A DNA stretch of 64,000 nt from the NCBI GenBank assembly GCA_030693535.1, contig JAUYAL010000009.1, forward strand, positions 1 through 64,000, in the 5' to 3' direction. The notes beneath the pieces were generated by a model. That model had not been told where the DNA came from. It searched no databases and saw only the letters and a list, made by a program, of their open reading frames with translations. Position 1 is the first letter of the stretch. Every line of letters begins with the position of its first letter. Below, piece after piece: positions 47,650-58,156 of this stretch. The stretch comes from Methylotenera sp. (GTDB lineage: Bacteria; Pseudomonadota; Gammaproteobacteria; Burkholderiales; Methylophilaceae). The translations under genes were made by a program, and so were the position numbers.

Positions 47650-47653
47650 CTAA

Positions 47654-47691
47654 TTTTAAATGGGTATCCAAAATACGTGGTTAATATCAAC
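47654..47691 (+). repeat. Left terminal repeat of cassette 1
   Basis: Begins TTTTAAATGGG and ends ACGTGGTTAATATCAAC, reading inward. It matches the left end of cassette 2 (57256-57297) at 23 of 30 positions over the GGGTAT...ATATCAAC core, by eye. Confidence 0.5.
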
Positions 47692-47713
47692 TTAATGGAG
47701 TCTAATTAATTGA

Positions 47714-48037
47714 CTACCGCTCCATGGGGGCTCTTAGCAAATCTGCCTTAAACATGTTTGCTCGCTCCAAGCACTCATCGAAGCTCAGATTAAATTCTAT
47801 TTTCTCAATTGCGTCAAATACTGGCAGCATGATTGATTTGCGTGACTCACATTGACTAACAAATACTTCAATATTTTTTACAAATACGTCATGATGAATC
47901 AATAACTCACTGTAGTGATGGTCTATCACCATTGCGAGGTCAAGCAGGTCTCTTGGAGTTGCGCTGTCGCCACGATGCCAGATCTTCTTCGCTACAATCT
48001 CTATCGGCGTTTCCAGAAAGATATTTCTGCCAAGCAC
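47714..48037 (-). pseudogene. C-terminal fragment of an AbiEii/AbiGii-type nucleotidyltransferase toxin
   Basis: About 107 codons encode FLETPIEIVAKKIWHRGDSA (6-25) and TPRDLLDLAMVIDHH, the conserved C-terminal block of AbiEii-family toxins paired with XRE-type antitoxins. The N-terminal two-thirds with the nucleotidyltransferase GS and DxD motifs are missing: an in-frame TAA stands directly before a GTG at 48037 and the other frames upstream show no family match. The gene is 62 bases downstream of the XRE gene, the normal position. So the toxin is dead and the antitoxin has been kept. Confidence 0.75.
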
Positions 48038-48099
48038 TTATGCTGAATGCCTTCTCAAGAAGGCTAATCCTTGGGCCATCTGGAAAGGTTAGCTCGGGC

Positions 48100-48585
48100 T
48101 TAGCCAAATGCATTCCAAAACTTGTTTGGCGACTTAATCTCCGTTGCAACATTCGCAAGGTTCTTCCAGACCAACTTAGCATTGATATTATATTTGGCGG
48201 AAAGTTGCTTGACGACGCCAACAACCAAAGAGGTTGGCGTTTCGTCAATCAGATGCATCACTTGCCCTTCAAGTCCTTCCTGAACTTTCCCACTCAACAT
48301 GAATTTTTCCAAATCAGATACTGACATAGATTTTTTGTAACTTGTATTGACGTTACTGAGTGTCAACTTGATAAAATCCATCTTTTTCCCATTCGAAAAC
48401 ATAGGCATACCGATAATTTCAGCTATCTCAGAAAGCTTGATAGCACCTATGTCACCAACTTTACCCCTTTCCAAATTTACAATTGTCACTCTAGAGATAT
48501 GCGATGCCTCGGCCAACGCCTTTTGACTCAGGCCGCACGCAGTCCTCTCTTTCTTAATGATTGCACCAATCGTTAAAATGTTCAT
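48100..48585 (-). CDS. XRE-family HTH regulator, antitoxin partner of the AbiEii remnant
   Basis: A 161-residue DNA-binding protein with a helix-turn-helix at residues 5-60 (GAIIKKERTACGLSQKALAE, SRVTIVNLERGKVG) and a C-terminal region of about 100 residues (VVGVVKQLSAKYNINAKLVW) typical of regulators paired with AbiEii toxins. It is complete and seems to have its own strong promoter, which would make a leaderless mRNA. With the toxin truncated it may be an orphan antitoxin that can still neutralise related toxins, or simply a relic. Confidence 0.78.
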   Translation of the reverse strand: MNILTIGAIIKKERTACGLSQKALAEASHISRVTIVNLERGKVGDIGAIKLSEIAEIIGMPMFSNGKKMDFIKLTLSNVNTSYKKSMSVSDLEKFMLSGKVQEGLEGQVMHLIDETPTSLVVGVVKQLSAKYNINAKLVWKNLANVATEIKSPNKFWNAFG

Positions 48586-48592
48586 GTTTTCT

Positions 48593-48621
48593 ACTATAGC
48601 GATATGCGAATTAAAAGTAAA
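48593..48621 (-). promoter_or_regulatory. Promoter of the XRE antitoxin gene, leaderless
   Basis: TTTACT (48616-48621) and TATAGT (48593-48598) are 17 bases apart. The start point falls within 1-2 bases of the ATG at 48585, so the mRNA would have no leader. An imperfect inverted repeat of AAAGTAAAG/CTTACTTT type at about 48614-48630 overlaps the -35 and may be the autoregulatory operator. Confidence 0.5.
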
Positions 48622-48673
48622 GCTTACTTTACTTTATTATGAATGATAGTAGTCCAATTGAATCAAATTGCGT

Positions 48674-48713
48674 GATTGGCATCAACCACCTTTTTCGATT
48701 GCTTATTTTAAAA
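48674..48713 (-). repeat. Right terminal repeat of cassette 1
   Basis: Read on the minus strand it starts TTTTAAAATAAGC and contains AAAAAGGTGGTTGATGCCAA, matching the left end in inverted orientation (AAAATACGTGGTTAATATCAA). The outer end is 5 bases from the rmuC stop. Confidence 0.45.
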
Positions 48714-48718
48714 TATCC

Positions 48719-50071
48719 CTAATCTTCTTTATCATTTGCAAGCTCGGCATCATCAACGATATCCAGCACATCTAGCGGTTTATTAGTCAATTCAACACGT
48801 TCAATCTGCGCAAATCTGCTTGAAATTTTCTGACTGCTGATATGAACCTCTTGCGCGTTTTCATGGGCTTGGCGAATATTATCTGCAAGTTTCTTCATGC
48901 GCTGGTCGAAGCGTCCGAAGTCTTTGCTAAGCTTGCCAAGCTCTTCTTTAATCACATGTACTTGTTTACGCGTTTCAACATCTTTCAGCACAGCACGGGC
49001 TGTGTTCAACACCGCCATGAGTGTGGTCGGTGAAACCACCCAAACGCGTTTATTCATGGCGTATTCAATCACATCATTATGATAGGCATGCAACTCTGCA
49101 AATACAGCTTCAGCGGGTATAAACATCACTGCGCCATCAGATGTCACGTTTGAGATGATGTATTTATTCGCAATGTCATCCACATGTTTTTTAACATCCA
49201 GTTTAAATTGCTTTTCAGCCAATAATTGCTCTGCATCACTCAATTTACTATCAAACATACGATGATAATTTTCTAATGGAAACTTGCTATCTACCGCCAC
49301 AGTGCCCGTTGGATCTGGTAAAAACAGGGCACAATCAGCGCGTGTTCCGTTTTCAAAAGTGTGTTGCATGGCGAATGAGTTCACTGGCAATACGTTACGT
49401 ACTAATGCTTCCAACTGCACCTCACCAAACGCGCCACGGCTACGCTTGTCGCCTAATAACTCCTGCAAACTCACGACATTGGTTGTTAAGCCATCGATTT
49501 TCTTTTGTGCTTCATCTATAGTTGCTAGGCGTGCCATCACATCAATAAATGTTTGATTAGTCTTTTTGAAACCTTCATCCAAACGCTCCGACACCTTGCC
49601 GCCGATTTGCTCTAGGCGTCCATCTACCGCTTTGGTCAAACTTTCAATACTCTGTGTCAGCGTGGTGGTTGCCTTCAACATCGTGTCATTAATAAGTGCC
49701 TGCTGAGATTTACCTTGCTCACTTAAGGTAGTATGCAACTTTTCTAATACCGTTTCGCGAGTTAAAGATAAGCTATTATTCTGCGCCAACTGCAATGCCT
49801 GCATTGCGTCACGCGTGGCTTGTAACTCAGTAGCAACGCTAGAACGTAATCGTTCACTTGTTTCACTTGAAGACGCACTCAAACGGTCACCTAATTTATT
49901 TAGGCCATCATTAAAGTCCAACAACATAGCACGATGCTTTTCTTCTAACTGTTGCAAAATTGCCTGTTGAATCACATCGGAATTTTTATCAAATTGATTT
50001 ACACGTACAATTTGCCAAATCATCAGTAGCAATATGGCGATGGCAACAACTAATATAATAATTTGTATCAT
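48719..50071 (-). CDS. rmuC: DNA recombination protein RmuC
   Basis: Putative nuclease-fold protein that limits DNA inversions at short repeats. I use the ATG at 50071 (450 residues): it opens with a single transmembrane helix (MIQIIILVVAIAILLLMIW), then a long coiled coil to about residue 200, and the RmuC domain with KRSRGAFGEVQLEALVRNVL, DCALFLPDPTGTVAVDSKFP, MFIPAEAVFAELHAY and VSPTTLMAVLNTAR. The upstream 11 residues from 50104 are not typical. The stop lies 5 bases from the outer edge of the toxin-antitoxin cassette. Confidence 0.87.
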   Translation of the reverse strand: MIQIIILVVAIAILLLMIWQIVRVNQFDKNSDVIQQAILQQLEEKHRAMLLDFNDGLNKLGDRLSASSSETSERLRSSVATELQATRDAMQALQLAQNNSLSLTRETVLEKLHTTLSEQGKSQQALINDTMLKATTTLTQSIESLTKAVDGRLEQIGGKVSERLDEGFKKTNQTFIDVMARLATIDEAQKKIDGLTTNVVSLQELLGDKRSRGAFGEVQLEALVRNVLPVNSFAMQHTFENGTRADCALFLPDPTGTVAVDSKFPLENYHRMFDSKLSDAEQLLAEKQFKLDVKKHVDDIANKYIISNVTSDGAVMFIPAEAVFAELHAYHNDVIEYAMNKRVWVVSPTTLMAVLNTARAVLKDVETRKQVHVIKEELGKLSKDFGRFDQRMKKLADNIRQAHENAQEVHISSQKISSRFAQIERVELTNKPLDVLDIVDDAELANDKED

Positions 50072-50114
50072 AAGTATGTGATTATACCTGATGAGGTTTA
50101 CCAAGGTTTTAGTA

Positions 50115-50201
50115 TTAGTTTCTGACCAAATCTGTCAACTGCTCCCCCAACCTGTTTTCCAAGTTAGCGATGGATTTGATTTCAGTGTCAGAAACTTTGA
50201 C
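50115..50201 (-). pseudogene. C-terminal tail of a gene cut by the IS element
   Basis: Directly after the right end of the IS element an open frame gives VSDTEIKSIANLENRLGEQL and then TDLVRN with a TAA at 50115-50117. It reads like the amphipathic end of a real protein, but the upstream part is replaced by the element and no matching start part was found on the other side. Family unknown. Confidence 0.35.
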
Positions 50202-50330
50202 ATCCTCCTCGCCCTAAAGAGCGAGGATTCCTACTGCTAGCGATTGATGTCCCAATCGGAGAATGTTCTTTCCAGCATTGATATCTCTATCATGCATAGT
50301 GCCACACAGCGCACAAGACCATTCTCTTAT
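50190..50330 (-). ncRNA. Expected guide (omega/reRNA) region at the tnpB 3-prime end
   Basis: In characterised TnpB systems the guide RNA is made from the 3-prime part of tnpB plus the right end, and the 16-20 bases just outside the right end act as the guide. Here this region holds the CCTCGC/GCGAGG stem. The guide would start in the GTTTCTGACACTGAAATC stretch just below 50197. Predicted only from position. Confidence 0.3.
50207..50226. repeat. Right-end stem-loop of the IS605-family element
   Basis: CCTCGC at 50207-50212 pairs with GCGAGG at 50221-50226, with the loop overlapping the tnpB stop codon (50214-50216). Such a palindrome is used by TnpA for strand recognition and by TnpB for its guide RNA. 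Confidence 0.6.
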
Positions 50331-51305
50331 TCGCAAACCTGCTCTACCTTTCGGACTGTTGCCAGAGATTTCTCCGCAACACGAACAAGTCTGGGAAGTG
50401 TACTTCTCATTTACTTCTGCAAACACCACTGACCGCGCCATCGCTTTATATTCCAGTTGTGTTTTAAGCATGTGCCAGCCAGCGTCTAATACCGATTTAG
50501 CCATGCGGGTTCTCGTCAGCGCTTTTGAACTGACATTTCCTACAAAGATTGCTCCGTGTTGTTTCACCAACGCAGTGCTGAATTGATGGTTATCATCCTT
50601 GCGTTGATTCTTTATCTTAGCGTGGATGGTTTTAATCAAACTCTTTTTGTTGGCTCTTTGCGCTAAGCCCAGTTTAGATTCCAAGTCTCTGTAGCGTTGC
50701 TTGCGTTCCAACTGAACGCCATCACTACAAGTGGCTGTGTCTTTTAAACCAAGGTCTATGCCAATTGAACTCGTGCCTGTAGAGGGTTGCACCTCTACCT
50801 TAACGGTGACATTAATATACCACCTGCCTCTGGCGTCTTGCGAGAACGAGCCTGTGCTTAACTCATACTTCGATAGGTCGTAGCTATCCCATAGACTAAA
50901 GAACTCACCGCAGAAGCGAATTTGACCATTGATGTATTTGATACCAGCCGCTTTAAATGGAATCCATCCCAACGCCTTTTTAGAGCCACTCGAACTGCGC
51001 CATTGCAACTTGTTCTTGCGAAATTGCTTGCGTGATTTGGCGTGTTGCGCTATGACACTTTGTACCGTGGCTGCACCGATGGTTAAGCTACGTTCAGTAC
51101 GGATGCTACGCAGTTCTTTATTTAAATCGTACTCTGAGGTGCCACCGTTAATATAACCTATGCCTGGTATTGGAATCCACGAGTATTCTGCGCTTAACGC
51201 ATTCGCGGCATTCCATACCTGATTAACCTCAAAAGCCCATTGGTTAAGCAGCTTTGCGTGCTTGTCTTTGACTCTTAGTTTCAGGGTTTTTAATTGTGTA
51301 GCCAT
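50214..51305 (-). CDS. tnpB: TnpB-family RNA-guided nuclease (IS1341-type)
   Basis: A 363-residue TnpB: N-terminal helical and WED-like parts, then a RuvC nuclease domain. The first catalytic aspartate is in GIDLGLKD (about 181-188), the zinc ribbon in CSCCGE and CALCG, and the third acidic residue in MHDRDINAGKNI. At the middle catalytic place, where well-studied TnpB proteins have V-E-x-L, this protein has FVGNVSSKAL, so the glutamate is absent. This is a feature of some TnpB branches, in which the residue may be moved or lost. It is a complete reading frame inside an element without tnpA. Confidence 0.85.
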   Translation of the reverse strand: MATQLKTLKLRVKDKHAKLLNQWAFEVNQVWNAANALSAEYSWIPIPGIGYINGGTSEYDLNKELRSIRTERSLTIGAATVQSVIAQHAKSRKQFRKNKLQWRSSSGSKKALGWIPFKAAGIKYINGQIRFCGEFFSLWDSYDLSKYELSTGSFSQDARGRWYINVTVKVEVQPSTGTSSIGIDLGLKDTATCSDGVQLERKQRYRDLESKLGLAQRANKKSLIKTIHAKIKNQRKDDNHQFSTALVKQHGAIFVGNVSSKALTRTRMAKSVLDAGWHMLKTQLEYKAMARSVVFAEVNEKYTSQTCSCCGEISGNSPKGRAGLRIREWSCALCGTMHDRDINAGKNILRLGHQSLAVGILAL

Positions 51306-51348
51306 CTGTTTATTAACGTTTTAATCCTATTTTGGTTGACTGCTTATT

Positions 51349-51395
51349 GAACGCCTTTGGCGTTCGTGCTTACATCCTCGCCATGAATGACGAGG
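51349..51395. repeat. Two stem-loops at the left side of the IS element
   Basis: The first is GAACGCC-TTT-GGCGTTC (51349-51365), a perfect 7-bp stem. The second is CCTCG-CCATGAATGA-CGAGG (51376-51395). The second closely resembles right-end stems of this element family, including the GAGGATGT that follows, so it could be a leftover right end of another copy. Confidence 0.5.
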
Positions 51396-51498
51396 TTTTA
51401 CGCGCTAATTGATAAAATATTATTGCCAACTAACACTTATTTACTTTTTAGCCTAAGTTTTCAGTATAACAAATCCCCATTCAGTCAAAAAAAGAATT

Positions 51499-51543
51499 AT
51501 GATTTTAGCAATGACTTTCACAGACAAAAATACTAATGATTAA
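51499..51543 (+). CDS. 14-codon leader reading frame overlapping the CHASE2 gene start
   Basis: ATG at 51499 to TAA at 51541-51543 encodes MILAMTFTDKNTND and overlaps the CHASE2 start (51536) by 8 bases. The CHASE2 gene itself has no clear ribosome-binding site, so translation could be coupled to this short frame. It may also be chance. Confidence 0.3.
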   Translation: MILAMTFTDKNTND

Positions 51544-53239
51544 ACTCAAATTAATCTTAAGCCAGTGGCTGGTCAATGTAACGCGTAAGCTAAGTAATAA
51601 CTTTTACCTGTACCTATGCGCCTTGCTTACAGTGCTGATTTTGCTTGATGCCAGCCTATTTCACATCGGTGAAAATATGCGCAATCGATCTTTTGACTTA
51701 ATGGTAAAAAATCGGATTGTGGTGCCAAAGGCTGACCCTAACATTGTCATCGTCGATATTAATGAGGCTTCATTAAATGCGATGGCTAAAGAATATGGTC
51801 GTTGGCCGTGGCCTCGGCAAGTATTTGGTGAATTTGTAGAGAATATCGAAGCACAAAATCCCAAGGCTATCGTGTTTGATATTTTATTTAGTGATGCTGA
51901 TGTATATAACCCAGATAGCGACACCTACTTCAATGATGTGATTGCAGGTACTAATAACACGTTTTTCCCGATGTTGCGTTTATCTGAAGCAAGCGATCAT
52001 CTAAGCAAAATTACGCCAGATATGATTCCCGGTTTAAAGCAATCTATTAAAAATGATGAACCAGTTTCAATAGTTAAAAAACCCATCGCTATTGTTTTGC
52101 CACATTTTGAAGCGTTAGTAAACTCAAAGCGCTTAGGTACACATAACATTTATGCGGATGCCGATGGTATCGCTAGAGAGTACAGACTTTGGCATGATGA
52201 AAATGGCTGGTTGCTACCTTCACTTCCTCTGACGGTAGGTAATTTTGTGCAAATGAACACATTGCCAACACCGCAAAATATGTTAATTAACTGGCGTGGT
52301 AAACCTTTTACATACGCATTTGTAAGCTTTAGTGATGTATATGCAGATATGGCAAGTAAAGTTAAAAAACGTGCTCCCAATGAATTTACCAACAAAATTG
52401 TCATTATTGGCTCAACTGCACCCTCATTGTTTGACATTAAAGCCACCGCGATGGCAAAAGAATTTCCTGGGGTAGAGATTTTAGCCACTGCCATTGATAA
52501 CGTACAACATACCGACTACTTGCAAGTATGGCGAGGTAAAACGCCCTATATATTGATGAGTCTTTTATTAATATGGCTTACTGCTCTCGCGTTTTACCGC
52601 AATATTGACCGAGATAAAGTCACCACGGTTTTTAGTAGTAGTCAAATCATCCTCTTAGTGCTTTCGTACCTAGTACTTAACTTTACTAATACTTATTTAG
52701 ATATTACTGGCCCCATTACTTGGGCAATTATGTACTTTAGTGTGGCCAAAATTTATGCGCTAGCGAATGACCGTGCCATGCAACGCCTCCTAGCTAATGA
52801 TATTGAATCTGGCAAAAAAGGTGCCGCCATATTGCTGATGCCAATTATTATTGAAATTGAGGCGTCACTAAGCGATGGTATGTTAAAAAAACTACAGCAT
52901 GAAATTGAACAACGCTGCCAAGTATCAGCCACCGTTGAGTTTTTAAAAGGCGCTCAGAGCGGTGTTTGGGGGTTATTTGGCGACATGTTTATTGTGAGCT
53001 GGGCATATCCACATGATGACGAAAGTGTTGCAAAAGAAGTTGAACAAGACGCTAATCAATTAGGTTTGCAATTAAAAGCATTACTAGAAAACATAGGTAT
53101 GCCAAAGGACACTGCTGTGCGTTATGTGCAACACACAGGCATTCTGAATTCAGAAAAGCCGATGGATAGCCAATGGCGTGGTTTGTTTGCGCAAGCAATC
53201 ATTAAGCTGGATCTTTTACAGAAAGATGGAAACTCATGA
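51536..53239 (+). CDS. CHASE2-domain membrane sensor with a degenerate cyclase-like C-terminus
   Basis: A 567-residue inner-membrane protein. One transmembrane helix (about 21-41) is followed by a periplasmic CHASE2 domain (NRSFDLMVKNRIVVPKADPN, GRWPWPRQVFGEFVE, IVFDILFSDAD, IVIIGSTAPSLFDIKATA), then three helices in about 332-410 and a cytosolic region of ~155 residues. The last has a pattern reminiscent of class III nucleotide cyclases (VWGLFGDMFIVSWAYP), but the first metal site (usually DIRGFT) reads IIIEIEASLS, so it is probably inactive. It overlaps the SH3 gene by 4 bases. Signal and output are unknown. Confidence 0.77.
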   Translation: MIKLKLILSQWLVNVTRKLSNNFYLYLCALLTVLILLDASLFHIGENMRNRSFDLMVKNRIVVPKADPNIVIVDINEASLNAMAKEYGRWPWPRQVFGEFVENIEAQNPKAIVFDILFSDADVYNPDSDTYFNDVIAGTNNTFFPMLRLSEASDHLSKITPDMIPGLKQSIKNDEPVSIVKKPIAIVLPHFEALVNSKRLGTHNIYADADGIAREYRLWHDENGWLLPSLPLTVGNFVQMNTLPTPQNMLINWRGKPFTYAFVSFSDVYADMASKVKKRAPNEFTNKIVIIGSTAPSLFDIKATAMAKEFPGVEILATAIDNVQHTDYLQVWRGKTPYILMSLLLIWLTALAFYRNIDRDKVTTVFSSSQIILLVLSYLVLNFTNTYLDITGPITWAIMYFSVAKIYALANDRAMQRLLANDIESGKKGAAILLMPIIIEIEASLSDGMLKKLQHEIEQRCQVSATVEFLKGAQSGVWGLFGDMFIVSWAYPHDDESVAKEVEQDANQLGLQLKALLENIGMPKDTAVRYVQHTGILNSEKPMDSQWRGLFAQAIIKLDLLQKDGNS

Positions 53240-53763
53240 AAATTAAATTGATTAGACTACGAACTAACATATTCGCATTAGGTTTGTCAGCCCTGCTAGT
53301 AGCCAACATTAGCTTGGCTGCTGAAAGTGGTAGCGCTCTTAAGAATGACAGTTTGCGCTTTGAACCCTATGCTGATGCCAAAGTGACTGGCGCTTTAACC
53401 CGTGGCGACAACCTTGAGATACTGACCAAAAAAGGCGCATGGCTAAAAGTAAAAAATAAAAAAAGTACTGGTTGGGTTAGATTGCTTTCCGTTAAGCGCG
53501 GAAGCACAAGTGCTAACAACCAAACAGCAGGGGCCCTTGCTGTAGCAAGTGGTCGCGCAGGTACTGGCCAAGTAGTTTCAACGACAGGCATCAGAGGCTT
53601 GAGCGCGCAAGATCTTAAAGCGGCAAAGTTTAATGAAGCTGAAGTAAAAGCCATGGAAAGCTATACACAGAGCGCAGAACAAGGCCAACAGTTTGCAAGT
53701 GCTGGCGGGTTAAAAACTGTAACATTTTCGAATTTAAAAGTAGCTAAAGGAGACTCAAAATGA
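53236..53763 (+). CDS. Exported bacterial SH3-domain protein
   Basis: A 175-residue protein with a Sec signal peptide (basic start, hydrophobic core NIFALGLSALLVANISLAA, likely cut after about residue 28). A bacterial SH3 domain follows at 40-90 (LRFEPYADAKVTGALTRGDN, ILTKKGAWLKVKNKKSTGWV), a module that typically binds peptidoglycan or peptides. The rest is low-complexity Ala/Gly. Overlapping ATGA junctions on both sides place it firmly between the CHASE2 sensor and the M48 protease, so it probably acts with them at the periplasmic side. Confidence 0.8.
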   Translation: MKIKLIRLRTNIFALGLSALLVANISLAAESGSALKNDSLRFEPYADAKVTGALTRGDNLEILTKKGAWLKVKNKKSTGWVRLLSVKRGSTSANNQTAGALAVASGRAGTGQVVSTTGIRGLSAQDLKAAKFNEAEVKAMESYTQSAEQGQQFASAGGLKTVTFSNLKVAKGDSK

Positions 53764-54782
53764 GTCAACTTAATAAACATTCTTTGAAAAAAAATCTCTT
53801 AATTTCAACAGTATTAGTTGGCCTACTCGCCAGTTTGAGCATGACAAGCTCAGCTTTTGATTTAAAAGATGCTCTTAAGGAATCTGTTAAAAAGAAAATT
53901 GAAGAACAATCAGGCCAATCATCAGAGCAGTCATCAGCCCCCGCAACAGCAACGGCTACAGAAAATAAAAATGCATTACCTGCCCCAGTTACGCCTGTGA
54001 CTGACACTCCTAACACTGCAAGTACAGTGACAACGCAGACAGCTGAAGCACCTCAATCTCCTCCAGCGACTATTAACTGGAAAAAACCTAGTAAAGAAGA
54101 AGAAATTGCCCTAGGTAGAGAAATTACTGGCAACTTACTTGGTGCTGCACCGCTAGTTAAAGATGAAGCCTTACAAAAATACGTTAACTCCGTAGGTCGC
54201 TGGGTTGCTTCCCAATCTGAAAGACCTGACTTACCTTGGCATTTTGGCGTAATTGAAAGCGATGATTTAAATGCATTTGCGGCGCCAGGAGGTTACGTCA
54301 TGATTACCAAAGGTTTATACCGAAAAATGAGTAACGAAGCACAATTAGCAGGCGTACTAGGCCATGAAATTGGTCATGTTGTAGCTAAACATCAACTTAA
54401 AGTACTTCAAAAACAACAATTAATAAATTTGGGCGCTAATTTTTTAAGTAAGAAAATGGCCAAAGATAACAATTTGATCAACAAAGCGATTGGCAGTGGC
54501 GCTGAGATTAGCGCTAGAAGCTTGGATAAAAATGCCGAGTTTGAAGCGGATAGATTAGGTGTGAGCTACGCTACACGCGCAGGCTATGAGCCATTTGGAT
54601 TAACGAATGTTCTACAGTTATTAGGGCAAACTAGCAAAAATGATAATAGCGTCGCTTTATTGTTCAAAACGCATCCTCATCCTGATGAAAGATTGGCTTT
54701 TTTAGGTGATTCTATAGGAAGCAAACTTGATAATATTCTAAATGGTAAAACATTGGAGAGTCGATTTTACCAATTGAAATAA
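53760..54782 (+). CDS. Periplasmic M48-family metallopeptidase (BepA/YggG/LoiP-like)
   Basis: A 340-residue zinc protease with a signal peptide (cleavage near residue 32) and a Ser/Thr/Pro-rich linker to about 105. The catalytic motif HEIGH is at 202-206, and the third ligand lies in the NAEFEADRLGV segment. The domain continues to LFKTHPHPDERLAFL, a typical end motif. No C-terminal TPR repeats of BepA are present, so it is nearer the LoiP/YggG type. Co-translated with the CHASE2 and SH3 genes, it may respond to an envelope signal. Confidence 0.85.
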   Translation: MSQLNKHSLKKNLLISTVLVGLLASLSMTSSAFDLKDALKESVKKKIEEQSGQSSEQSSAPATATATENKNALPAPVTPVTDTPNTASTVTTQTAEAPQSPPATINWKKPSKEEEIALGREITGNLLGAAPLVKDEALQKYVNSVGRWVASQSERPDLPWHFGVIESDDLNAFAAPGGYVMITKGLYRKMSNEAQLAGVLGHEIGHVVAKHQLKVLQKQQLINLGANFLSKKMAKDNNLINKAIGSGAEISARSLDKNAEFEADRLGVSYATRAGYEPFGLTNVLQLLGQTSKNDNSVALLFKTHPHPDERLAFLGDSIGSKLDNILNGKTLESRFYQLK

Positions 54783-54839
54783 TTCCTAATAATAAAGAGA
54801 AACCTTACTGAAATCTATTTAAGTCAAAAAATATTCCAT

Positions 54840-54868
54840 TTGACAGATTCTTTATTGCAGATTATTAT
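54840..54868 (+). promoter_or_regulatory. Strong promoter of higBA, leaderless
   Basis: TTGACA (54840-54845) and TATTAT (54863-54868) are exactly 17 bases apart. Seven bases after the -10 is the A of the higB ATG (54875), so the transcript should begin at or within a base of the start codon. Confidence 0.65.
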
Positions 54869-54874
54869 TGCGTA

Positions 54875-55153
54875 ATGATTCATTCATTCAAATGTTCAGA
54901 TACAAAAGCGCTATTTCAGAGTCAAGATATTCAGCGATTTAAGAACATAGAGAGAGTTGCGCGTCGCAAACTGCTTCAATTACACGCTGCAACCGAATTG
55001 AATAGTTTGCGAATACCTCCAGGGAATCACTTAGAAGCATTAAAAGATAATCGCAAGGGACAGCACAGTATTCGCGTCAACGAAAAATGGAGATTATGCT
55101 TTGTATGGCGAGAAGACGGTGTACATAGCGTTGAAATTGTTGATTATCATTAA
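54875..55153 (+). CDS. higB: HigB-type mRNA endonuclease toxin
   Basis: A 92-residue RelE-superfamily toxin that cleaves mRNA in the ribosome. The family's marks are MIHSFKCSDTKALFQ at the start, LNSLRIPPGNHLEALKDNRK in the centre and SIRVNEKWRLCFVW with the catalytic Arg/Lys surface, ending in VEIVDYH. Length and start are usual. The toxin gene precedes the antitoxin, the reverse of most systems but normal for higBA. It has a strong, probably leaderless promoter. The gene is intact. Confidence 0.88.
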   Translation: MIHSFKCSDTKALFQSQDIQRFKNIERVARRKLLQLHAATELNSLRIPPGNHLEALKDNRKGQHSIRVNEKWRLCFVWREDGVHSVEIVDYH

Positions 55154-55177
55154 ATTATGTTTAGAGGAATATTGAAA

Positions 55178-55483
55178 ATGGCACAATTACTTGATGAAAT
55201 TCACCCAGGTGAAATTCTACTTGAAGATTTCATGAAGCCAATGGGAATAACGGCTAGACAGTTAGCTTCTGACATCGATGTTTCACCTAGTCGAATTAGC
55301 GAGATTGTTAATGGTACACGTCCAGTTACCGCAGATACCGCGTTGCGTCTGGGACTGTTTTTTGGAATGGAGCCACGTTTTTGGCTAAATCTCCAAAGTG
55401 AATATGATATGCGAATGGCAACACGTAATTTAATAACAAAAATTGCCCCCAGAATCAGGGTGTTTCATCAAGCAGTAGCTTGA
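55178..55483 (+). CDS. higA: HigA-type HTH antitoxin
   Basis: A 101-residue DNA-binding antitoxin that binds HigB and represses the operon. The start at 55178 is chosen for its GAGG ribosome-binding site (about 12 bases upstream); the ATG at 55157 lies outside the family consensus. Residues 2-20 show AQLLDEIHPGEILLEDFM; the HTH spans GITARQLASDIDVSPSRISE; and the end has FWLNLQSEYDMR. It follows higB by 24 bases. The pair is complete and likely active. Confidence 0.88.
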   Translation: MAQLLDEIHPGEILLEDFMKPMGITARQLASDIDVSPSRISEIVNGTRPVTADTALRLGLFFGMEPRFWLNLQSEYDMRMATRNLITKIAPRIRVFHQAVA

Positions 55484-55579
55484 AAGTAATGAGATTCTGG
55501 ATTTTTTCCCAATACCTCAAGTGCGCCTTTGTTTCTTGAGTTCTATTTATCAAAAATCTTACAAAGAGTCGAACTCAGC

Positions 55580-56614
55580 CTAAACTAAGTCTCTAGAACG
55601 TAATTCCGCTTTTATATAGGCATAATAAATGGGTGCCGCCACAATACCTGTTAAACCAAAAGCGGCTTCCATACATAGCATGGCAATCAGTAATTCCCAA
55701 GCATTTGCCCTGATTTGGCTGCCGACTATTCGCGCATTTAAAAAATATTCTAATTTGTGAATCACGATTAAATAGCTCAATGATGCTATAGCCACACCTA
55801 ATGACTGGCTCATACTCACAATCACAATCATCGTATTAGAAATCAAATTGCCAACCACTGGAATTAAGCCGACAACAAATGTAATAGCAAGCATGGTTTT
55901 AATCAGAGGCAAATGAATGCCCATTGACGGCAAGACTACCGCTAAATAAATCGCAGTAAAAATCGTATTGATGGCTGAAATACGTAGCTGAGCAAAGACC
56001 ACCCGCTTAAATGCATCACTAAATAGCTCTCCTCGCCCTGCCAGCGATCGTGCTAACGGTTTAAAATTATCTATTGCCACCGCATCACGTACTGCCAACA
56101 TACCGCCAATTACCATACCAATCAGCACATGCGCTGTTGCACGCCCAGCCTCTTTACCGACCACTTGTAATTCATCTGCATGTGCTCGAAGCCAGTCAGT
56201 TGCTTGCACTTTAAAAGCAATCGCATCTGCAGGCAAATATTCAAGTATCCAGCTTGGTAAAATTTTACGTGAATCTTCTATAATCTGCGCCATTTTTGCA
56301 AGCAGTACGGTTAGGCTGCCAGACTCTGATCTAAAAAATGCTAGTAAGCCGGCGCCCGCCAGTGATAACAAACTAACAATAATAATCACTAAAATAGCCG
56401 CTGCCCACAATTTAGAGGTGTTGTTAGACTTTTTACTTGGAAATATACGCACAATAAAGGGGGTAATAATCTGCACCAGCTCAAAGACCAGTAAGCCAGC
56501 AAGTAAGGCGGGTAATAGATTAAACTTAAGCACAAAAAACAGTGTGAAAGCCGCTATCACCCATGCGGAAATGTCATAGATTGTTGGTGGCAATGTTTTT
56601 GAAGTTTTAGTCAT
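55580..56614 (-). CDS. AI-2E family transporter (UPF0118/TqsA-like)
   Basis: A 344-residue inner-membrane protein with about eight transmembrane helices and the family's central amphipathic region. Landmarks are SKLWAAAILVIIIVSLLSLA, LAGRGELFSDAFKRVVFAQL and the C-terminal hallmark GLIPVVGNLISNTMIV. The family includes putative exporters for autoinducer-2 and Na+/Li+-H+ antiporters, so the substrate is uncertain. It converges with higA on the opposite strand; the 96-base gap has no clear intrinsic terminator. Confidence 0.82.
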   Translation of the reverse strand: MTKTSKTLPPTIYDISAWVIAAFTLFFVLKFNLLPALLAGLLVFELVQIITPFIVRIFPSKKSNNTSKLWAAAILVIIIVSLLSLAGAGLLAFFRSESGSLTVLLAKMAQIIEDSRKILPSWILEYLPADAIAFKVQATDWLRAHADELQVVGKEAGRATAHVLIGMVIGGMLAVRDAVAIDNFKPLARSLAGRGELFSDAFKRVVFAQLRISAINTIFTAIYLAVVLPSMGIHLPLIKTMLAITFVVGLIPVVGNLISNTMIVIVSMSQSLGVAIASLSYLIVIHKLEYFLNARIVGSQIRANAWELLIAMLCMEAAFGLTGIVAAPIYYAYIKAELRSRDLV

Positions 56615-56665
56615 AGATCAGAGTTAATCCTAAAAAATTATCTTACCAATAGCATAATAAAAACA

Positions 56666-57244
56666 TCACACATATGTACCATGCGGCTTAAATCGATTTA
56701 AAAAATTAGTAGATTCATCTATAGGGAGAGAAAGTACTAAATCAACTTGCTCGTTAAAAACTTTAGTGACAATACTACCATTACACTTAGCCAATGCATT
56801 CGTCAGCATATCCATTTGTTTGTAAGTGATGGATAATTTATAAGTGCTCATTTCAACAAACTCAGACGTTTTCGCTACATCCAGCGCCAGCTTGGCTGTG
56901 CCACCATATGCGCGTGCAAGTCCGCCAGTTCCAAGATTAATGCCACCATAATAACGAATCACCGCAACGCATACGTTGATTAAATCGCGACCTTCAATCA
57001 ACTTTAATATTGGCAAACCCGCTGTACCCGATGGTTCTCCCGCATCAGAAAAACGTGGAATGATACCCAGCTCAGTTTTAATACGAAAAGCATAAGCCAA
57101 ATGATGCGCTGTTTGGTGTTGTGATGCAAACGCACGCAATGCTGCGCCAACTTCACGCTCGTCTGCACAGGGCAAGGCTATAGCAATAAAGCGTGATTTT
57201 GTAATGGTTTGCTCTGCGAAACCTGCTTGAGATATAACGAAAAT
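56666..57244 (-). CDS. yigZ: YigZ/IMPACT family protein with an apparent non-AUG start
   Basis: A member of the UPF0029/IMPACT family (in E. coli 204 residues). The core AYRIKTELGIIPRFSDAGEPSG is split by position, but SDAGEPSGTAGLPIL and RYYGGINLGTGGLARAYG are plain. The first ordinary start, TTG at 57175, would lose the conserved KSRFIA motif, which lies upstream in the same frame (GFAEQTITKSRFIAIALP). Back to the TGA at 57248-57250 there is no ATG, GTG or TTG; only ATC (57247) and ATT (57244), and an AAAGG lies 6-9 bases ahead. So I propose ATT or ATC initiation or a start codon lost through insertion of the adjacent cassette. Confidence 0.7.
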   Translation of the reverse strand: MFVISQAGFAEQTITKSRFIAIALPCADEREVGAALRAFASQHQTAHHLAYAFRIKTELGIIPRFSDAGEPSGTAGLPILKLIEGRDLINVCVAVIRYYGGINLGTGGLARAYGGTAKLALDVAKTSEFVEMSTYKLSITYKQMDMLTNALAKCNGSIVTKVFNEQVDLVLSLPIDESTNFLNRFKPHGTYV

Positions 57245-57255
57245 GATTCAAGACC

Positions 57256-57297
57256 TTTTAATTAATAGGGTATTCGTAATACGCTGCTGATATCAAC
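57256..57297 (+). repeat. Left terminal repeat of cassette 2
   Basis: Starts TTTTAATTAATAGGG and contains GTAATACGCTGCTGATATCA. It also has a small GTATT-CGT-AATAC stem (57270-57282). Related to the ends at 47654 and 48713. Confidence 0.55.
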
Positions 57298-57335
57298 ATT
57301 AGCCGACAGCTATGAGAATTCAACAATCCTTAGAT

Positions 57336-57764
57336 TCATTTCGCACCGCGTTCCCATGGGTTTATCAGCCTCACTCCACAAGGTTCGAAGTCACTGACGT
57401 TTCGAGTGACAACTGTCATGCCGTGTACAAGCGCAGTTGCCGCAATGAGTCCATCCCTAACTGGGCGAGGGTCTGGTACATGTAACATTGCACTTCGAAT
57501 GGCGACGGCAGTGTCAACCGGCAGGATTCGCCCAGAGAATGCAGGCATTACGTGATTATCCAGCCAGGACCTGAGCAATATTCCTTTTGTCGGGTCGCGA
57601 TGCTCCGCAAGTAAAACTCCAATCTCAAGTTCTTGCAACGTGATTACTGATAGGTAGAGCTCTGCCGTATTTACACTATCCGCCCATTGCGAAACAAACT
57701 TGTCTGCTTTACCAATACGTATCTTGCGAATCTCGGACACTACATTCGTATCGAGAATGTACAT
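57336..57764 (-). CDS. vapC: VapC/FitB-type PIN-domain ribonuclease toxin
   Basis: A 142-residue PIN-domain toxin with all acidic residues in place: D5 in MYILDTNVVSE, the Glu in VITLQELEIGVLL (about 43), the Asp in RPVRDGLIAATALVHG and the last one in VTRNVSDFEPCG. The FitB-like group cleaves tRNA or rRNA. It shares one base with the antitoxin stop at 57764. Unlike the broken copy at 2854-3056, this one is intact; the two are not close relatives, since their C-terminal blocks differ. Confidence 0.87.
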   Translation of the reverse strand: MYILDTNVVSEIRKIRIGKADKFVSQWADSVNTAELYLSVITLQELEIGVLLAEHRDPTKGILLRSWLDNHVMPAFSGRILPVDTAVAIRSAMLHVPDPRPVRDGLIAATALVHGMTVVTRNVSDFEPCGVRLINPWERGAK

Positions 57765-58018
57765 CAGGAGAGATCCGCTGCCTGTGCAATATCACGCATG
57801 GCCGGGATTTTAAAATCAATATCCTCAATGCCTGGCATCGCCAGCAAGTCAGATATCTTATGTTGACCACCTGCCAAGCGCTGATAAACCTCGAAACTCA
57901 GAAGAACATGAGATGGGCGGCCGCGATCTGTAATAAATACAGGTCCGTGGCTGGCAGCTTTCTTAGCTTCGCTTGAATGCTGATTAAACTCTCTGCTTGA
58001 TACAGTGGTAATAGTCAT
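57764..58018 (-). CDS. Phd/YefM-type antitoxin
   Basis: An 84-residue antitoxin. The N-terminal DNA-binding Phd/YefM fold shows SSREFNQHSSEAKKAASHGP (7-26), and the following strand VFITDRGRPSHVLLSFEVYQ is the dimer-forming core; the C-terminal part (ISDLLAMPGIEDIDF) would wrap the toxin. It precedes and overlaps the VapC gene by one base. A nested palindrome upstream is probably its binding site. Confidence 0.87.
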   Translation of the reverse strand: MTITTVSSREFNQHSSEAKKAASHGPVFITDRGRPSHVLLSFEVYQRLAGGQHKISDLLAMPGIEDIDFKIPAMRDIAQAADLS

Positions 58019-58027
58019 TTTTAGCGC

Positions 58028-58067
58028 CTTACTTTTAAATGTAGAAATGTTACTACAATGAGTAAGG
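58028..58067. promoter_or_regulatory. Nested inverted repeats, likely operator of the Phd/VapC pair
   Basis: The inner repeat TGTAG-N8-CTACA lies at 58040-58057. An outer pair CCTTAC (58028-58033) and GTAAGG (58062-58067) flanks it. They are 10-50 bases upstream of the antitoxin start, where Phd-type proteins bind for autorepression. Confidence 0.5.
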
Positions 58068-58115
58068 AAAGTCCAAACAAGAGTTCATTCAATATGATGA
58101 GAAATTAAATTACAT

Positions 58116-58156
58116 GGTATAGATCAACCGCGTATTACTGATTCCATTAATTAAAA
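58116..58156 (-). repeat. Right terminal repeat of cassette 2
   Basis: Read on the minus strand it begins TTTTAATTAATGG and contains GTAATACGCGGTTGAT. It is the inverted partner of 57256-57297 and ends 6 bases from the fhs stop codon. Confidence 0.55.

Follow-up and report, generated by a model that had tools for sequence, protein, structure and literature searches.

Two toxin-antitoxin units of a Methylotenera contig as probable non-autonomous ISL3-family cassettes

How do two unrelated toxin-antitoxin units come to lie between inverted copies of the same kind of sequence, each splitting a pair of genes that otherwise adjoin? The question is raised by a 64,000-nucleotide stretch of DNA from Methylotenera sp. 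(GCA_030693535.1, contig JAUYAL010000009.1, positions 1 to 64,000; hereafter the window), in which an XRE gene with an AbiEii-like remnant stands between rmuC and moaD (cassette 1) and a Phd-VapC pair between fhs and yigZ (cassette 2). Judging from sequence comparison, each unit is very probably a non-autonomous element of the ISL3 family of insertion sequences (a mobile insertion cassette, MIC): a toxin-antitoxin pair between ISL3-type repeats, moved in trans.

Ends, boundaries and cargo of the two units

We scored both strands of the window with a position-weight matrix made from 21 ends of other genomes. The matrix contained no window letters but was not wholly blind, because its 21 ends had been located with an earlier matrix in which 4 of the 11 alignment rows were window ends. 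The four ends around the two units took ranks 1 to 4 among all window positions, in the correct orientations, with scores of 36.0 (47662-47691, plus strand), 35.1 (57268-57297, plus), 20.0 (58117-58146, minus) and 10.8 (48675-48704, minus); the next best position scored 3.9. Across 200 simulated 64-kb sequences (first-order Markov), the top score averaged 4.6 and peaked at 20.3, and the fourth best never exceeded 5.2. These ranks confirm the first-pass annotation, which had placed four related inverted ends around the units by eye and had singled out the right end of cassette 1, here the lowest score, as the weakest. The third toxin-antitoxin pair of the window, HigB-HigA (54875-55483), served as an internal control and has no such ends by the matrix. 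A pattern search with the inner core only was noisy (matches in 29 of 32 genomes, with many control matches).

The shared ends therefore stand, but TTTTAA, which had been taken as their outer edge, does not belong to them. The repeat proper consists of GGGTATCCGTAATACGTGGTTGAT and a further stretch on its inner side; it begins at GGGTATCC and leaves TTTTAA outside, within an 8-bp target duplication. Since TTTTAA is duplicated target DNA, the tips of the elements lie at 47662-48704 (1043 bp) and 57268-58146 (879 bp), reading GGG... at 47662 and 57268, with the inverted counterparts at 48704 and 58146. Both left ends are of a type that we call E2 (GGGTATCCGTATTTCGTGGTTGATATCAACA, 31 bp) and lie on the plus strand: an ISL3-type terminal inverted repeat with an ATCAAC extension in cassette 1 (47662-47692, GGGTATCCAAAATACGTGGTTAATATCAAC followed by T), and GGGTATTCGTAATACGCTGCTGATATCAAC followed by A in cassette 2 (57268-57298). 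The right ends, on the minus strand at 48661-48704 and 58103-58146, are of type E1, which is palindromic and about 44 bp long. In cassette 1 the ISL3-type inverted repeat is followed by a decayed palindromic arm, and the arm is decayed in cassette 2 as well (8 of 15 pairs kept in each).

All cargo genes are encoded on the minus strand, and neither the open reading frames nor the Pfam domains of the two units include a transposase gene. Cassette 2 holds an open Phd/YefM antitoxin gene (57764-58018, 84 codons) and an open VapC toxin gene with a PIN domain (57336-57764, 142 codons), with PF02604 and PF01850 identifying a type II toxin-antitoxin cargo. In cassette 1, the XRE-type antitoxin or regulator gene is open (48100-48585, 161 codons; HTH_3), whereas the AbiEii-like toxin gene is broken: an N-terminal piece (48039-48158, residues 1-40, by tblastn) and a C-terminal piece (47714-48037, residues 136-242 of an intact 242-residue relative, below the PF08843 cut-off) are out of frame with each other, and residues ~41-135 are gone.

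Empty sites, duplicated targets and recurrence

If the units arrived by insertion, relatives might keep the unoccupied junctions, and the first-pass annotation had proposed to look for them. They are there: the rmuC-moaD site was empty in 19 of 19 relative loci inspected (of 27 loci with both genes) and the yigZ-fhs site in 8 of 8 (of 12). In the remaining 8 and 4 loci, of Methylophilus, Methylovorus and Methylobacillus types, the genes are separated by 2-207 nt and 10-25 nt, respectively, as judged by tblastn; in several relatives of the same comparison fhs was not found beside yigZ. Deleting insert 1 together with one 8-9 bp duplication leaves a moaD-rmuC gap of 17-18 nt, and the gap in an empty relative locus (L005) is 17 nt, counted by eye. 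The outer edges lie at the distances reported earlier from the stop codons of rmuC and fhs and from the start of moaD.

Both window cassettes are flanked by 8-bp direct repeats, each matching 8/8. ATTTTAAA occupies 47653-47660 and 48705-48712 around cassette 1, with T47661 between the left copy and the tip, and TTAATTAA occupies 57258-57265 and 58147-58154 around cassette 2, with the bases TA in between; with flanks as AT-rich as these, the probability of an 8/8 match when shifts of up to 2 are allowed is 0.007. We measured duplications at 22 end pairs from outside the window, each end with a score of 14 or more; alternative left ends of a single element count as separate pairs, and the set takes in one named plasmid and two genomes from other families. 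Of these pairs, 15 have a flush duplication of 7/8 or better, 12 being 8/8. When the right flanks were permuted (2000 trials), the mean was 0.98 pairs and the maximum 6. The matrix used to find these pairs was partly trained on the same ends; the duplication test is independent of that. The targets are rich in A and T (88% in 16 hand-picked duplications), and landing between tightly spaced genes, as the annotation had it, fits a preference for AT-rich 8-mers.

Integron gene cassettes and Xer/pdif modules are known to carry toxin-antitoxin genes between short sites, and the palindromic E1 would suit a site-specific recombination cassette of this kind. Such a cassette would use a fixed site without target duplication; here the targets vary and 8 bp are duplicated in 15 of 22 pairs, as by a DDE transposase rather than by Xer or an integron, and ISL3 transposase genes carry the same ends (see below). 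The attC and pdif motifs were compared by eye only. We rejected this class and give it hardly any credence.

The mobile-cassette reading predicts further inverted pairs around different genes. A sequence model of 11 ends was scanned, with stricter filters, over 187 Methylophilaceae genomes (at most 39 candidates per genome; among the matches listed, 20 regions plus G175 and G158:C358 were opened, and further loci by script; G, C and L numbers are our handles for genomes, contigs and loci). The model favours E1/E2-type ends, since its 11 ends are the earliest finds and 4 of them come from the window. Two-ended cassettes devoid of a transposase occur in at least eight genomes: Phd-VapC in G018 and G143, VapBC in G159 and G161 (the VapB of G159 falls below the Pfam cut-off), XRE-AbiEii in G023:C380, the source of the intact AbiEii above, MazEF in G003, where the right end has diverged, HipBA in G154, and in G002 a two-gene pair to which Pfam, NCBIfam and PADLOC give no toxin-antitoxin name. 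A recognised toxin-antitoxin pair is thus the cargo in seven of the eight, and five recognised types, two of them with PIN-domain toxins, lie between the same ends, which bears out the claim that the cargo is unrelated and the ends common. Lone ends adjoin toxin-antitoxin genes in G013, G151 (at a contig edge, 85% to cassette 1), G157:C132 and G016:C17 (beside a MazF-like remnant recognised by eye). As a separate observation, the Phd-VapC cassette of G018:C36 adjoins apparent CRISPR repeats of two kinds, seen by eye (L091, about 500-650).

The same cassettes recur as units at different sites. Those of G159 and G161 align from one tip to the other, exactly 734 bp, with 98.5% identity, while about 230 bp on each side cannot be aligned in place and each copy has its own duplication (7/8 and 8/8); those of G018 and G143 share 91% over 892 bp. 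Cassette 1 matches that of G023:C380 in two pieces (82% and 78%) that almost reach the tips, the missing middle being the AbiEii deletion. Cargo orientation is not fixed either: relative to E1 and E2 it is reversed in G154 and G002.

These cassettes also bear on whether the repeats are simply operator or terminator parts of toxin-antitoxin operons, inherited by descent. In most cassettes E1 is found upstream of the antitoxin gene, in the four relatives tested it forms a strong hairpin, and similarity among cassettes of one toxin-antitoxin type is long, all of which an operon would explain. It would not explain why five recognised types have the same ends, why cargo is reversed in two genomes, or why the ends are flanked by 8-bp duplications and shared with ISL3 transposase genes. 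Moreover, the G143 Phd-VapC cassette as a query matched 191 plasmid records and, among the matches listed (25 of 191), similarity stayed within positions 113-836 of 901, short of the ends and covering genes only. We consider the operon explanation highly improbable and rejected it.

Other searches beyond chromosomes gave little. Viral contigs contained no exact match to the E2-type pattern and 2 matches to a shorter ISL3-end pattern; the VapC relatives present in 4 viral contigs lacked such ends at the threshold used, and in phage records no end match covered 80% of the query. Plasmid records gave 6 weak matches to an end oligonucleotide, and three of these, when opened, had no second end alongside at threshold 7. 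A separate search for VapC homologues had no power to discriminate, its 8000 scored candidates all being relatives.

ISL3 transposases with the same ends

What, then, would move a cassette that has no transposase? The first-pass annotation had proposed to look for a source enzyme with the same ends, and ISL3-family transposases are present in the family (PF01610 in 8 of 32 Methylophilaceae genomes, 3 of them strong). Beside an intact ISL3 transposase gene, the element end has 0 of 24 mismatches to the cassette consensus in G158:C311 and 1 of 24 in G011:C52; G146:C17 also has 0 of 24, with its transposase gene in two pieces at a contig end. The G011:C52 element is complete, with TetR-like and lipoprotein-like genes (named by eye), exact TTTATATA duplications and a transposase comprising ISL3 DDE, zinc-ribbon and HTH (helix-turn-helix) domains. 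An ISPst2/ISPpu12-like ISL3 transposase encoded elsewhere in the same cell would bind both ends and carry the cassette into an AT-rich 8-bp target, often between genes, the 8 bp being duplicated; once landed, the toxin-antitoxin pair would be expected, from the general behaviour of such pairs, to favour its own retention by addiction. The window copies are old, fixed insertions: their ends are degraded, their duplications are no longer flush and AbiEii is broken, although the Phd-VapC genes of cassette 2 are still open.

Related ISL3-type ends also enclose other cargo. In Methylophilaceae these include a 4.7-kb element (G157:C139, L175 240-4966) with an exact 8-bp duplication, encoding triosephosphate isomerase, fructose-bisphosphate aldolase and fructose-bisphosphatase (tpi-fba-fbp) plus a LysR gene, a 5.0-kb element with an exact duplication (G006:C11) and a 4.1-kb element with no clear one (G007:C3). 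An order-wide sample gave a match at E <=0.05 in 19 of 399 genomes, including G011 and G085 of Methylophilaceae; G530 and G191 have complete pairs with exact duplications, their cargo being a PAPS-reductase-like gene and an HTH gene with a small open reading frame.

Some relatives keep toxin-antitoxin-type genes beside a transposase. G071:C39 is a complete ISL3 element with an exact duplication and DUF433-DUF5615 (PIN-like) next to the transposase; G071:C40, which lacks a 7/8 duplication, has a nucleotidyltransferase gene followed by a HEPN-like open reading frame (by eye). In G079, where the transposase is broken, and in G158:C204, a YhcG/DUF1016 nuclease gene precedes the transposase, and left ends were not identified. 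On plasmids, pKF715A of Pseudomonas putida (L233 2234-4928) combines an AbiEii/AbiGii gene with a transposase between more divergent ends and TGTTTTTC duplications, and in pTX1 of Thauera the genes include a Fic-like one that falls slightly short of the Pfam cut-off, the duplications there being ATTTTACC. G023:C332 (L122 1294-2704) is an ISL3 deletion derivative that retains start and end stubs of the transposase along with a lipoprotein-like gene; its genome is the one that harbours the XRE-AbiEii cassette.

The cassettes could accordingly be ordinary ISL3 transposons with toxin-antitoxin passengers whose transposase was lost in situ by deletion, in favour of which stand G071:C39, G071:C40 and pKF715A, with such passengers beside the transposase, and the deletion derivative G023:C332. 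Two observations speak against it. The same transposase-less cassette is found at different sites with its own duplications (G159/G161 and G018/G143), and so seems to move as such, and cassette ends are unlike transposase-bearing ends beyond position 24. We regard in-situ loss as unlikely.

Mobilization in trans of a transposase-less ISL3-type cassette remains our preferred explanation, and several observations weigh against it. The window duplications are off the left tips by 1 and 2 bases, and a flush comparison gives only 5/8 and 1/8; 7 of the 22 non-window pairs have no flush 7/8 duplication, and G003, which is outside the 22 because its right end is too diverged, has none. The G011 transposase was matched (E <= 0.001) in only 15 of 187 Methylophilaceae genomes, some matches being distant, and among the eight cassette genomes only G023 has a match, which is a remnant. 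Many other ISL3 elements of the family end 3-8 of 24 mismatches off the consensus, or show no end at 8, and the matching transposases come from genomes other than that of the window organism. The sequences show the ends and their cargo, the empty sites, the duplicated targets and the transposase genes that share the ends; movement in trans, retention by addiction and the manner of cargo capture we infer. On balance, the earlier proposal of small non-autonomous mobile cassettes with toxin-antitoxin genes is supported by the empty sites, the duplications, the varied cargo and an ISL3 family with the same ends.

In the neighbourhood of cassette 1, a stand-alone TnpB/OrfB gene (IS605-type, with a Cas12f1-like TNB domain; 50214-51305) lies between rmuC and a gene for a CHASE2 protein, whose closest relatives are in Methylotenera metagenome-assembled genomes (top identity 84%, gene order conserved). 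Rfam gave no match within the 64-kb window at the gathering threshold.

A shared pair of ends, and known systems

Are the toxin-antitoxin cassettes then a group of their own within the ISL3-ended elements? Transposase-bearing ISL3 elements diverge from the cassette ends beyond position 24. There, ATCAAC occupies positions 25-30 in 12 of 12 E2 ends of toxin-antitoxin cassettes, and 10-15 of the 15 palindrome pairs are kept in 9 of 11 E1 ends, the two window ends being the others; 25 other ISL3-type ends have no CAAC at that place and a palindrome score of 2-6. Both lists were chosen by hand and leave out the right end of G003 (which, although diverged, does read ATATCAAC), the solo palindromes of G175, G147, G014 and G019, and various single ends, among them G158:C54/C204/C358, G016:C34 and G187. 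None of the 12 E2 ends had a cargo other than toxin-antitoxin genes, although the census could have missed such cases.

Two-sided changes in the E1 palindrome number 13, compared with 7.0 after shuffling, and 0 of 500 shuffles, which ignore relatedness, reach 13; the number of pairs with a two-sided change (6 against 4.1, 25/500) and of further pair types (10 against 8.7, 102/500) is less clear. Folding is strong in the four relatives (z -4.3 to -6.9), weak in cassette 1 (z -2.0) and, in cassette 2, no stronger than expected by chance (-0.7). Elements made of two abutted ISL3 ends only also exist: a 48-bp element in G175:C268 (L229 864-911) has an exact duplication, AAAATATT, and a second 48-bp palindrome in G014:C9 (L236 about 1501-1548) has none by eye. 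The solo palindrome pattern matched in 2 of 187 genomes, and a similar 48-bp palindrome in G147 has a duplication of only 3/8.

Because the E1/E2 pair is common to the toxin-antitoxin cassettes and absent from the 25 other ends, these cassettes look like one chassis with exchanged cargo, and the 48-bp elements suggest a mini-element of this kind as the origin of E1 and a composite origin of the cassettes. We tentatively extend this to a dedicated toxin-antitoxin shuttle of Methylophilaceae, a possible but doubtful scheme in which a conserved, transposase-free pair of E2 (31 bp) and E1 (~44 bp) would exchange unrelated modules in either orientation, perhaps captured when 48-bp mini-elements flanked a locus that then moved as a composite.

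Chromosomal toxin-antitoxin loci are patchy in distribution and their mode of movement is often unclear; the cassettes offer one concrete means of transport, about 0.7-1.8 kb long, free of a transposase and with ends and exact boundaries that are defined. This predicts where such loci are mobile, and trans mobilization becomes testable with one transposase and two short ends.

Among the papers listed by searches of open-licence PubMed Central, none was found to describe toxin-antitoxin cassettes with ISL3 ends, ISfinder and subscription journals lying outside that scope. Their parts have precedents: MICs, ISL3 elements with passengers and Tn3 toxin-antitoxin pairs are already described in passages of PMC3129680, PMC4133298, PMC4444841, PMC6305408 and PMC7157771. 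Nearest to the cassettes stands the ISPst2/ISPpu12 group of the ISL3 family, and the repeats of ISPpu12 are of this kind too. In ISPst2 the repeats are GGGTATCCGGAATTTCTGGTTGAT and GGGTATACGGATTTAATGGTTGAT, the left one matching the cassette consensus at 20 of 24 positions and the right one at 18 of 24 by our count, and the duplications are AT-rich and 8 bp long (TTTTTAAA and CAAAAAAG; PMC6305408, Table 3). ISPpu12a resembles the cassettes in its passenger-gene habit (excerpts of PMC4133298). As these excerpts present it, the group carries its own transposase with passengers (a permease and ArsR, or a lipoprotein signal peptidase and a metal antiporter), whereas the cassettes are transposase-less, hold toxin-antitoxin genes and have distinct E1 and E2.

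Miniature inverted-repeat transposable elements (MITEs) are about 30-300 bp long without coding capacity in the excerpted PMC4133298, in contrast to 1043 and 879 bp with genes here, and we rejected that class for the cassettes; beside them, relatives have the 48-bp solo palindromes. Tn3-derived miniature elements (TIMEs) are likewise non-autonomous, with ends of an insertion sequence or transposon, and build larger mosaics as well, but have 38-bp Tn3 ends and 5-6 bp duplications in the same excerpts, in place of ISL3 ends and 8 bp. Tn3-family transposons share with the cassettes type II toxin-antitoxin passengers of several types; according to the sections of PMC7157771 used, the pair there mostly sits within the transposition module, while here it is the sole cargo of a transposase-less element. 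The class that fits is the MIC, which is related to an insertion sequence, has no transposase of its own and can be activated by a cognate one (passages of PMC3129680 and PMC4133298): the cassettes have no transposase between their ends, carry passenger genes and recur at different sites, and they differ in cargo, which is qnrS2 (PMC4444841, in part) or virulence genes (PMC7157771, in part) in the MICs described there and toxin-antitoxin genes here.

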